Assembly: GCA_026985525.1 (NCBI GenBank)
Contig: JALSQI010000008.1
Location: 1 to 59,413, forward strand
DNA length: 59,413 bases
Direction: 5' to 3'
Source of the DNA: Archaeoglobaceae archaeon
Lineage (GTDB): Archaea > Halobacteriota > Archaeoglobi > Archaeoglobales > Archaeoglobaceae
The translations under genes were made by a program, and so were the position numbers. Positions 28,155 through 31,503 of this stretch are shown here, piece by piece; the first letter of the stretch is position 1, and each line of letters opens with the position of its first letter. Below the pieces are notes generated by a model. It worked only from the letters and a program-made list of their open reading frames with translations, was not told the origin of the DNA and searched no databases.

Positions 28155-28360
28155 TAATTATTTATCATTTTGGATTTTTGAGGCATTATTTCGATTTTTT
28201 CGTACTGATGCTTAAAAGTTAGGAATCCTTAGTAACTTTTTTAGCTTTTTTACGAATTCGACGTTGAAGATTCGAAGACTATCAATTTTCCATGATGATT
28301 ATAATTACGTTCCGGAAATTATATATACGATAATGAAAATAGTTATATTCGTGATCTGCC

Positions 28361-28522
28361 ATGAGGCGTTTTGACAGAAGGTCTTTTGAAAGAAAGGGGC
28401 TTAACAAGCTCCTAAGCAAGGACGAGAGACTTTTGCTCGAAAACCTCGAAGAGTTGAAGATTGACAACCTTAGAATGAGCATAAAGGAAATAGCTGACAT
28501 GGTACTTCCGGAAGAGTACTAA
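28361..28522 (+). CDS. Small conserved-looking protein, 53 residues
   Basis: A short frame from ATG 28361 encodes a charged helical peptide (MRRFDRRSFERKGLNKLLSK then a leucine/glutamate-rich helix and IKEIADMVLPEEY). No ribosome-binding site is obvious, but a TATA-like TATATACGATAATG lies about 30-45 bp upstream, so a leaderless or short-leader transcript is possible. Coding character is supported by regular heptad-like hydrophobics. I do not know the family. It is 28 bp upstream of the ubiquitin-like gene. Confidence 0.6.
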   Translation: MRRFDRRSFERKGLNKLLSKDERLLLENLEELKIDNLRMSIKEIADMVLPEEY

Positions 28523-28550
28523 TTTATAGCGCTTCTGAACTTTTTTAGTT

Positions 28551-28754
28551 ATGGTTAAGGTGAGGCTAAAGTTCGTGGGTTTCGAGGAGGGTGATATGGT
28601 AGTAGAGGCTGAGGGGACGTATGCTGAGCTTTTATCAAAGCTCGGTATAAACCCTGAAACAGTCATAGTAATAAAGGATTCCACACCCATACCAATAGAC
28701 GAAAAAGTTGAAGAAGGCGAAGTAACTGTAATGAGAGTGATATCAGGGGGCTGA
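28551..28754 (+). CDS. Ubiquitin-like small modifier (SAMP/ThiS/MoaD-type) ending in Gly-Gly
   Basis: A 67-residue beta-grasp protein (VKVRLKFVGFEEGDMVVEAE, then GTYAELLSKLGINPETVIVIKDSTPIPIDEKVEEGEVTVMRVISGG). The exposed C-terminal GG (66-67) is what archaeal E1-like enzymes adenylate, either for sulfur transfer (thiamine, molybdopterin, tRNA thiolation) or for attachment to lysines as a SAMP. The next gene is a JAMM protease, the class that removes SAMPs, so a conjugation role is likely. No E1 gene is nearby. Confidence 0.88.
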   Translation: MVKVRLKFVGFEEGDMVVEAEGTYAELLSKLGINPETVIVIKDSTPIPIDEKVEEGEVTVMRVISGG

Positions 28755-28821
28755 GTAAAAACTAAAAAACTTAAAAACTAAGTTAGTAAAAGCTTAATAT
28801 TGTTTTTTAACTATTTAACTC

Positions 28822-29247
28822 ATGCTTAAATTTTTGTCCAATCGCTTCAAAGCTAAAAAGAGAGATATAAGATATACAATATCGAGAGAAGTTCTCGAAA
28901 TGGCAATAGCCGCTTCAAGAGATAGCTATCCTAACGAGTTCATAGCCATGTTAGGTGGAAAAGTTAGTAGAAGCAGAGTTCACGTTAGCGAATTGATTTT
29001 TCTCCCCGCAGTTAGCGGTAGCGTAAGTGCTGTATTACACACGGACATGCTTCCACTTGGCGTTAGAGCTCTCGGCACGATACATAGCCACCCTTCTACG
29101 AATTTTAACCCATCTTTACAGGACTTAGAAACTTTCTCCAAGCAAGGCGTAGTTCACGTTATAATTGCTTACCCATACACTATGGATAGCTGGAGGGCTT
29201 ACAATAGTAGAGGTGAAGTCTTAAAATTAGAAGTCGTTGATGAATAG
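28822..29247 (+). CDS. JAMM/MPN+ metalloprotease (desampylase-like)
   Basis: A 141-residue JAB1/MPN domain protein with the full zinc motif: catalytic E39 (SYPNEFIAMLGG) and H88-x-H90-x7-S98-x2-D101 (TIHSHPSTNFNPSLQD). Such archaeal proteins include the structurally known AfJAMM and haloarchaeal HvJAMM1, which cleaves ubiquitin-like SAMPs from targets. It is encoded 67 bp after a Gly-Gly ubiquitin-like protein on the same strand, which supports a modifier/deconjugase pair. Confidence 0.9.
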   Translation: MLKFLSNRFKAKKRDIRYTISREVLEMAIAASRDSYPNEFIAMLGGKVSRSRVHVSELIFLPAVSGSVSAVLHTDMLPLGVRALGTIHSHPSTNFNPSLQDLETFSKQGVVHVIIAYPYTMDSWRAYNSRGEVLKLEVVDE

Positions 29248-29290: not shown

Positions 29291-29944
29291 ATGAAAGTTT
29301 TGGCGTTTCAGCACTACCCGACGGAACCAATGGGGTACATAGAGGAAGTTCTGAAGGACTTGGGAGTAGATTACGAGTACGTTAAGCTGTACGAAGGTGA
29401 ATTTCCTGAAGAACTGACTGAATACACGCACCTCGTTTTTATGGGCGGTCCTATGGGCGTTTACGAAGAGGATATATATCCGTTCCTTGCAAGAGAAAAA
29501 GAGATTATAAGAAACACCAATTTACCGGTAATAGGGTTTTGTCTCGGAGCTCAGTTAATAGCGAGTGCTTATGGGAAAGAGGTTTATCCCTTTAAGAAAG
29601 AGCTTGGGTGGATGGAAGTCGTTAAAGTTGAAGATGACATCTCTACTGAGGGATTACCAGAAAAAATGACAGTATTTCAGTGGCACGGAGATACGTTTGA
29701 TTTACCTGATAACTCCGTTTTACTTTACAGGGGTTATGAGGTTGAAAATCAGGCTTTTAGGGTGGGAAAAGCTCTTGGTTTCCAGTTTCACTTAGAGGTT
29801 ACGGAAGACATAGTGAAAAAGTGGATAGAAGATGAGGAAATGAGCGATGACGAAAAAAATAAGATTTTAGATGATACTGAAAAATTCGTGGAGAAAGCAA
29901 ACGAACTTTGCGAAATTCTGATAAAGAACTTTCTTAAGCTTTAA
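29291..29944 (+). CDS. Type 1 glutamine amidotransferase
   Basis: A class I amidotransferase domain protein of about 217 residues. The nucleophile elbow is GFCLGAQLIASAYG; the His/Glu part appears as FQFHLEVTED; upstream, FMGGPMGVYEED and FQWHGDTFDLP match the YLR126C/GuaA-like branch. It may be a stand-alone glutaminase or gamma-glutamyl hydrolase; the substrate is unknown. The ATG at 29291 is preferred since MKVLAFQHYPTEPMG is the family start; the longer frame would overlap the JAMM gene. It is 3 bases from the DUF2148 gene. Confidence 0.85.
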   Translation: MKVLAFQHYPTEPMGYIEEVLKDLGVDYEYVKLYEGEFPEELTEYTHLVFMGGPMGVYEEDIYPFLAREKEIIRNTNLPVIGFCLGAQLIASAYGKEVYPFKKELGWMEVVKVEDDISTEGLPEKMTVFQWHGDTFDLPDNSVLLYRGYEVENQAFRVGKALGFQFHLEVTEDIVKKWIEDEEMSDDEKNKILDDTEKFVEKANELCEILIKNFLKL

Positions 29945-30520: not shown

Positions 30521-31503
30521 TACTCGACTTTCCGAGCACCAAACTATCTAAGGAGTTGGCTGAGAAATACGGATACGACGAATTTTTGATTAGGAGGTGG
30601 GTCGGCTTATTTGGACGTGAGGCAAAAGATTTGGCTGAGGGTATGGAAAGGGTGCCTAAGTACTTGAGAGTTAACACTATAAAAATTGGAGAGAGAGAAC
30701 TGATAAATAGGATGGAAAGAAGAGGATTCCGCTTAAAAAACACGGAAATTCCTTACTGCTATGAGTTAATTTCAGAGCCTTTTTCTGCTGGTTCAACGCC
30801 CGAATACTTAATGGGCTACTACTACTTGATGGATAAATCCTCCTGCGTACCTCCCTTAGCCTTAGCAGAAGAATTTGAGTTTTTTAACAACCCTTTAATC
30901 GTCGATTTCGCCTCCTCCCCCGGCGGTAAAGTTACAATGATTTCTCAGCTTATGAAGGAAAGAAACGTTAGAGGTAAAATACTTGCTTTAGAGGCTCAAA
31001 AGGATAGGTTGCCAGCTTTGATTGACAACATACACAGGATGGGGGTAAAAAACGTCGCAGTCCTTCACATGGATGCCAGAAATTTTCCAAAATACGGAGT
31101 AAAAGCGGATTTGCTATTATTAGATGCTCCTTGCACGGGCGAGGGAATAATACACAAGGACGAGAGCAGAAAGAAGAGCAGGGGTAGGAAAGATATAGAA
31201 TTCTGCTCAAGACTTCAAAAGGAACTTTTGAGTTCTGCTGTAAAAAGCGTTAAAGCTGGTGGAATAATTGTTTACTCGACTTGCTCAATAGCTCCAGAAG
31301 AAAACGAGTTAGTCGTTCAGTGGGCTTTAGATAACTTCTCATTAGAGATTGAAAAGATTAAAATTCCGGGAGAGAAAGGTCTTACGGAATTTGGAGGTAT
31401 TAAAGTTGATGAGAGGTTAAAGCTTGCTAAGAGGTACTATCCTCACAGGAACAGATGTTCTGGCTTTTTTGTAGCAAAGCTTAGAGTAGTTAAAAGTTAT
31501 TAA
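30517..31503 (+). CDS. RNA m5C methyltransferase, NOP2/Sun family
   Basis: A 328-residue Rossmann-fold methyltransferase. SAM-binding motif: IVDFASSPGGKVTMISQLM; catalytic motifs DAPCTGEG (motif IV Cys) and YSTCSIAPEENE (motif VI Cys), both cysteines present. The substrate may be tRNA or rRNA. The N-terminal RVPKYLRVNTIKI segment is the usual NSUN RNA-binding lead-in. It ends convergently with the aRF1 gene, overlapping by 4 bases. Confidence 0.9.
   Translation: MILDFPSTKLSKELAEKYGYDEFLIRRWVGLFGREAKDLAEGMERVPKYLRVNTIKIGERELINRMERRGFRLKNTEIPYCYELISEPFSAGSTPEYLMGYYYLMDKSSCVPPLALAEEFEFFNNPLIVDFASSPGGKVTMISQLMKERNVRGKILALEAQKDRLPALIDNIHRMGVKNVAVLHMDARNFPKYGVKADLLLLDAPCTGEGIIHKDESRKKSRGRKDIEFCSRLQKELLSSAVKSVKAGGIIVYSTCSIAPEENELVVQWALDNFSLEIEKIKIPGEKGLTEFGGIKVDERLKLAKRYYPHRNRCSGFFVAKLRVVKSY

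Follow-up and report, generated by a model that had tools for sequence, protein, structure and literature searches.

Which neighbour of a SAMP2-family gene is its dedicated partner, the metalloprotease gene that follows it or the small gene that precedes it? The question is raised by a three-gene locus in the window, the 59,413-nt stretch of Archaeoglobaceae DNA that we analysed, whose named relatives at this locus are Archaeoglobaceae, not haloarchaea. An earlier note on this DNA had proposed that the ubiquitin-like modifier and the JAMM protease form a dedicated pair, with the small protein as a possible substrate or adaptor. The three ORFs, their shared strand, the 67 bp between the SAMP2 and JAMM genes and the C-terminal GG were all confirmed (Table 1), and the spacing from the microprotein gene to SAMP2 is 28 nt. 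The interpretation as a whole is partly supported, and its emphasis should be reversed: the conserved partner of SAMP2 is the small protein, not the JAMM protease.

Table 1. Features of the locus, in positions of the window
Feature	Position	Strand	Evidence
Shine-Dalgarno-like match GTGATC, 4 nt before the microprotein ATG	28351..28356	+	
Helical microprotein, 53 aa, SAMP2-associated family, invariant K12-G13-x-x-K16	28361..28522	+	ORF, profile, dN/dS, predicted structure
SAMP2-family ubiquitin-like protein (by sequence), 67 aa, C-terminal GG (...RVISGG)	28551..28754	+	ORF, Pfam, PDB match
JAMM/Prok-JAB metalloprotease, 141 aa, AfJAMM (AF2198) orthologue, genus-specific neighbour	28822..29247	+	ORF, Pfam, PDB match, motif

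By its sequence, the 67-residue protein belongs to the SAMP2 family of ubiquitin-like proteins. It resembles Haloferax volcanii SAMP2 in its family sequence and C-terminal GG, in matching the Haloferax SAMP2 structures in the PDB (2l32, 4hrs; E 2e-10) and in passing the Pfam SAMP2 cut-off (PF21965, 72.2 bits against 27), but differs from it in falling under the cut-off of the NCBIfam SAMP2 equivalog (NF041919, 65 bits against 70), and we have therefore filed it as SAMP2 family rather than as the NCBIfam equivalog. The RVISGG C-terminus is invariant in 16 aligned SAMP2 sequences. The earlier note saw no E1 nearby, and indeed the sole ThiF match of the window genome lies on another contig (G000:C49:33581-34249, 199.5 bits, cut-off 28.1). 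A ThiF E1 was found in 35 of 39 genomes, that of the window included, and the window genome encodes two further ThiS/MoaD-like proteins. The PP-loop ATPase family PF01171 proved uninformative, since it matched 15/15 genomes and all 14 controls.

The 141-residue protein passes the Prok-JAB cut-off (PF14464, 55.3 bits against 25) and matches the AfJAMM structures 1r5x/1oi0 over the full-length domain (E 4e-36). Residues E39, H88, H90, S98 and D101 were found at the positions given earlier, and residues 88-101 together with E39 make up the JAMM motif E-Xn-H-S/T-H-X7-S-X2-D. To call the two proteins a modifier and its likely deconjugase was thus a fair reading, given a SAMP2-family protein and an AfJAMM orthologue with an intact motif, and on the strength of its homology the JAMM protein is most likely the desampylase that removes SAMP2. 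The zinc and catalytic residues are the same as in AfJAMM, from which the window protein differs in having about 17 extra, basic N-terminal residues (a stretch that varies among members of the window's genus), in aligning Phe and Ala with the disulfide-forming C74 and C95 described in the consulted text of PMC300881, and in the position of its gene, as JAMM and SAMP2 lie far apart in G131, taken as A. fulgidus. It shares the JAMM family with Haloferax HvJAMM1 and Pyrococcus JAMM-1, for both of which cleavage of SAMP conjugates is reported (PMC4048286 and PMC6043591, in the portions consulted), but scores far under the NCBIfam cut-off for the haloarchaeal desampylase (NF041370, 26 of 130 bits). 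For AfJAMM itself, the part of PMC300881 consulted records that the 2003 assays saw no activity with any substrate tried and that its biology was then unknown; the orthologue encoded beside SAMP2 offers this type of protease a definite, testable substrate.

Adjacency does not, however, make JAMM the dedicated partner. Our sample comprised 294 genomes of the window's phylum, with 51 from its family (f1), which contains its genus (g1). JAMM matches occur in 280 of the 294. In 98 genomes the places of both JAMM and SAMP2 are listed (both on one contig in 27), and the two lie within 5 kb of each other in only four, all of them from g1, so the dedicated modifier-protease pair was rejected. As for the three-gene order, it is kept in these four genomes of the genus, while in the other genomes with places listed JAMM is elsewhere. 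Gene order around JAMM is largely shared within the genus. G002 has the same order as the window over the whole run that starts two genes ahead of the microprotein and ends with the third gene beyond JAMM, and a short contig of G001 holds only the microprotein, SAMP2 and JAMM. G005 has the same two genes ahead of the microprotein, and the 3.1 kb beyond its JAMM showed none of the three genes found there in the window. At this locus (L065, G005:C14) about 1 kb lies between SAMP2, which ends at 29634, and the JAMM match, which starts at 30699, and by eye it looks like broken transposase sequence. Adjacency to JAMM is a feature of the genus, shared by all four of its genomes in which the locus is present; the protease would sit beside the operon as a local arrangement, not as the basis of the link to SAMP2.

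The 53-residue ORF is a real gene. A chance ORF is ruled out by dN/dS values of 0.05-0.15 within the window's genus (computable for five of six pairs, the remaining one being saturated at synonymous sites) and by matches in 111 of the 294 genomes. Four of the six genomes of the genus carry it, and the two without it (G003 and G004, 68% and 76% complete) also have no SAMP2 or JAMM match. The protein matched no Pfam or NCBIfam family above cut-off; six of its relatives gave no NCBIfam match and four weak Pfam matches, all under cut-off, and a PDB search with the family profile matched no chain (best E 2.8).

The extent of the family was followed with two profiles. Of 40 genomes, namely the window's own and its relatives, 38 have JAMM, 33 SAMP2 and 21 the 53-residue protein. 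In 20/20 pairs within the window's family the small gene adjoins SAMP2, and the 21st locus (G007) is cut by a contig end, with part of SAMP2 found there. A first profile, built from the 21 microprotein sequences of the window's family, matched 107 of the 294 genomes: 45 strongly (the window's family) and 62 more weakly. Of these weaker matches, 46 immediately precede SAMP2 and share its strand; for the remaining 16, SAMP2 is listed elsewhere in two and has no listed place in 14. A broader profile of 32 sequences (E limit 0.01) matched 111/294 genomes in 35 of 107 genera, with E values between 4e-22 and 7e-5; the range from there up to the limit held no other match. Nine genomes were gained relative to the first profile, and five weak first-profile matches (G011, G127, G148, G172, G208) were not upheld.

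We read 118 loci, chosen for matching plus six without the microprotein; 112 hold it (the 111 and G027). SAMP2 is directly downstream on the same strand in 104 of the 112, once as a fusion. For the 102 unfused pairs measured, the SAMP2 start lies between 38 nt ahead of and 83 nt past the stop of the small gene, some of the start picks being rough; the pair of G021, where SAMP2 is also directly downstream, is missing from this scripted set. The surroundings otherwise vary between genera, with no neighbour cluster shared by more than 13 of the 55 loci scanned (neighbours >90 aa, BLAST E 1e-6). Within family f1 the two coincide exactly, 45 of the 51 genomes having both SAMP2 and the microprotein and six having neither. 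Over the whole sample, SAMP2 profile matches occur in 247 genomes: 104 genomes match both proteins, seven the microprotein without SAMP2 and 143 SAMP2 without the microprotein, although one of the seven (G036) has SAMP2 beside the microprotein by other readings. From these counts the pairing is lineage-bound, and since 143 of 247 SAMP2 genomes have no microprotein match, SAMP2 does not need the microprotein in general.

Named genomes agree on where the pair is found. The microprotein is present at 47 of 61 named SAMP2 loci, from Archaeoglobaceae/Archaeoglobi/Archaeoglobales, Methanotrichaceae/Methanothrix, ANME-2, GoM-Arc1/Argoarchaeum/Ethanoperedens, Methanoperedenaceae, one unclassified archaeon and one mislabelled bacterial bin. 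The other 14 loci lack it and come from Woesearchaeota, Aenigmatarchaeota, another DPANN lineage, two unclassified archaea and four bacteria, and the distribution beyond the phylum is read from these 14 alone. At L193, one locus taken as haloarchaeal from its SAMP2 sequence, no microprotein match lies upstream of SAMP2, a difference from the window. Plasmids searched for SAMP2 gave no match. In all, the microprotein-SAMP2 pair is conserved across Archaeoglobi and Methanosarcina-like lineages while its surroundings change, and the dedicated pair is the 53-residue protein with SAMP2 rather than JAMM with SAMP2.

The two genes are also closely joined at the nucleotide level. In 50 of 104 pairs a 4-nt overlap joins the TGA of the small gene to an ATG, GTG or TTG that is in frame with SAMP2, a count that is independent of the scripted SAMP2 start picks, some of which are wrong. 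By family, this -4 overlap occurs in 17/45 pairs of f1, 30/36 of f5 (which we infer to be a Methanosarcina-like lineage), 3/10 of f21 and 0/13 of the remainder. Shine-Dalgarno-like matches of at least 5 nt precede the microprotein start at 81 of 111 loci (13% of shuffles) and SAMP2 at 55 of 103 (21% of shuffles; some starts mis-picked). In the window, the match before the SAMP2 ATG is only 3 nt long. Microprotein and SAMP2 are thus probably translated in a coupled way.

A smaller group of loci departs from the usual start codons. In 15 genomes an ATT that is in frame with SAMP2 overlaps the stop of the small gene. In 13 genomes of the window's family (L072, L086, L076, L078, L079, L068 and seven more) it aligns with SAMP2 Met1 and makes a 5-nt overlap with that stop (+1 frame), without a canonical start at that place. 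Two of the 15 (G016, G025) have a canonical SAMP2 start at -17; of the remaining 13, an in-frame ATG lies at -35 or -38 in seven and a TTG at -32 in three, and in G012, G022 and G136 no canonical SAMP2 start was seen within the range scanned. G007 has GTT at the SAMP2 start position. The ATT position could reflect an AUU start, a longer SAMP2 that begins inside the small gene, or frameshifting; the AUU start was downgraded, as most of these genomes have upstream canonical starts and this residue may lie within a longer SAMP2.

Members of the family are mostly about 40-66 residues long and share the core F-x-[KW]-R-x-x-[EKR]-R-K-G-x-K-K ... K-L-[IL]-x-E-N-[LV]-x-[DE]-[LI], followed by a variable, mostly acidic tail. 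The N-terminal half is strongly basic and rich in K/R. K12, G13 and K16 are invariant in 103/103 distinct sequences, so that K12 and K16 are never Arg, while other basic columns exchange the two residues (R7, 86 R and 12 K; R11, 82 R and 13 K; K23, 97 K and 5 R). AlphaFold, run on the microprotein alone with 41 sequences, predicts helices at residues 6-36 and 41-48 (mean pLDDT 79, pTM 0.38). Residue 6 is Arg in four sequences of the window's genus and Trp in 17 from outside it.

One genome joins the two proteins outright. In G032, microprotein and SAMP2 form a single in-frame ORF of 104 residues that ends in GG, on a contig of about 1.07 Mb. It is the only fusion among the loci scanned for one, and being confined to one genome it could be a sequencing frameshift error. 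Viral contigs searched for relatives of the fusion gave none.

Conversely, eight genomes keep the microprotein without an adjoining SAMP2, four in f18 (G050, G080, G086, G101) and four of the five in g26 (G038, G103, G107, G179). In G050, G080 and G086 no SAMP2 match was found anywhere in the genome, the contig of G086 ending about 170 bp downstream of the microprotein; G101 (63% complete), G103 and G107 are outside the 247 SAMP2-matched genomes, and G038 and G179 have only weak SAMP2 matches (E 2.5e-5 and 4.3e-6), which are not among the places listed. G050 and G101 have no ThiS-family match either. K12 and K16 are retained in the genomes without a SAMP2 match. Persistence of this kind implies that the microprotein has, or had, a role independent of SAMP2 at the locus. 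At the four f18 loci read (L168, L169, L170, L175), the orphan microprotein gene is preceded, about 50 bp upstream, by the start of a divergent tRNA-Ser(CGA) gene. A divergent tRNA-Ser(CGA) gene was also seen about 50-60 bp upstream of a SAMP2 gene without the microprotein (L188).

What, then, might the microprotein do? Haloferax offers the closest background, drawn here from the portions of PMC4048286 consulted: both tRNA-Lys thiolation and protein modification require SAMP2 and the E1 UbaA, NcsA is bound to SAMP2 both covalently and non-covalently, HvJAMM1 cleaves SAMP2 from NcsA, and the system has an E1 and a desampylase with no predicted E2 or E3, the need for extra specificity factors being unclear. 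Our best reading is that the microprotein is an adaptor-like peptide dedicated to SAMP2, serving conjugation or the thiolation of tRNA. The helical microprotein and SAMP2 would be made together from an operon of two translationally coupled genes, and the peptide would bind SAMP2, or a SAMP2-E1 or SAMP2-NcsA complex, directly. Its basic, Lys-strict N-terminal helix would face tRNA, NcsA or E1 and its amphipathic L..KLI..NL..L stretch SAMP2 or a partner, lending specificity or efficiency to a pathway of protein conjugation and 2-thiouridine formation that lacks E2 and E3; JAMM would remove SAMP2 again. We give this a probability of about 0.4. It is favoured by SAMP2 lying downstream at 104 of 112 loci, by the exact co-occurrence in f1, by the frequent -4 overlap, by constancy of the pair amid changing surroundings, by the natural fusion and by the presence of a ThiF E1 in most genomes; direct binding in particular is suggested by the fusion and the gene overlap. 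Counted against it are the eight genomes that keep the microprotein alone, the 143 SAMP2 genomes that do without it, the low pTM of the AlphaFold model and the restriction of the fusion to one genome, where it may be a frameshift error.

It is conceivable, though on the whole unlikely, that the microprotein acts instead on RNA or the ribosome, for example as a tRNA- or rRNA-binding peptide in translation fidelity, without touching SAMP2, the two genes sharing an operon since both serve translation. The many Lys and Arg residues of the N-terminal half would suit such a peptide, as would its persistence in f18 and four g26 genomes and the divergent tRNA-Ser(CGA) genes of the f18 loci, and archaeal ThiS-group Ubl genes are linked to tRNA-modification genes in the part of PMC2948915 consulted. 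An RNA-directed peptide would not, however, be expected to fuse in frame to SAMP2 or to pair with SAMP2 and not with any other gene, and mere charge is insufficient where Arg never replaces K12 or K16 in 103 sequences. A bolder form of the adaptor proposal casts the microprotein as a lineage-specific factor that confers specificity in place of the missing E2/E3, to which it is not homologous, and that is co-produced with SAMP2 and, in one lineage, fused to it. We regard this as rather improbable; if true, the microprotein would steer SAMP2 either to proteins or to tRNA sulfur, and an AfJAMM-type protease would reverse the outcome.

We hold it improbable that the microprotein is a dedicated substrate, with K12 and/or K16 accepting the SAMP2 C-terminus and JAMM reversing the reaction. 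Two lysines that stay Lys while R7, R11 and K23 drift between Lys and Arg, with JAMM following on the same strand in the window's genus, are what such a substrate would be expected to show, but both lysines are kept where SAMP2 is missing, for which reason we downgraded them as acceptors; they would also lie in cis in the G032 fusion, and JAMM is unlinked elsewhere among the places listed. Finally, a small ORF serving mainly as a translational leader that sets SAMP2 expression would fit the -4 overlaps and the Shine-Dalgarno-like matches, stronger before the small start than before SAMP2, but is very improbable for a peptide with such low dN/dS and residue-level invariance that both survives without SAMP2 and fuses to it.

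SAMP2 and JAMM are known kinds of protein; the new part is the SAMP2-linked microprotein family. The idea that neighbours of archaeal Ubl genes point to their partners is that of Makarova and Koonin 2010 (PMC2948915), which, in the part consulted, lists small uncharacterised proteins beside other Ubl groups and in its Table 1 has none beside the ThiS/SAMP2 group in Archaeoglobi or Methanosarcinales. No description of the microprotein was found in the open-licence PMC literature consulted, though the supplements of the M. mazei small-proteome paper (PMC11456600) may list the ORF, and searches by A. fulgidus locus tags guessed from coordinates returned unrelated papers only. A strictly conserved microprotein encoded with SAMP2 would be a concrete, genetically testable candidate specificity factor in its host lineages, among them the genetically tractable Methanosarcina-like methanogens.

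As a minor observation on the named loci, a record titled Desulfobacteraceae Eth-SRB1 (L135) also bears the SAMP2-microprotein pair. Its microprotein has exactly the sequence seen in GoM-Arc1 archaea (L134, L136, L137), and the pair is probably archaeal sequence in a bacterial bin.
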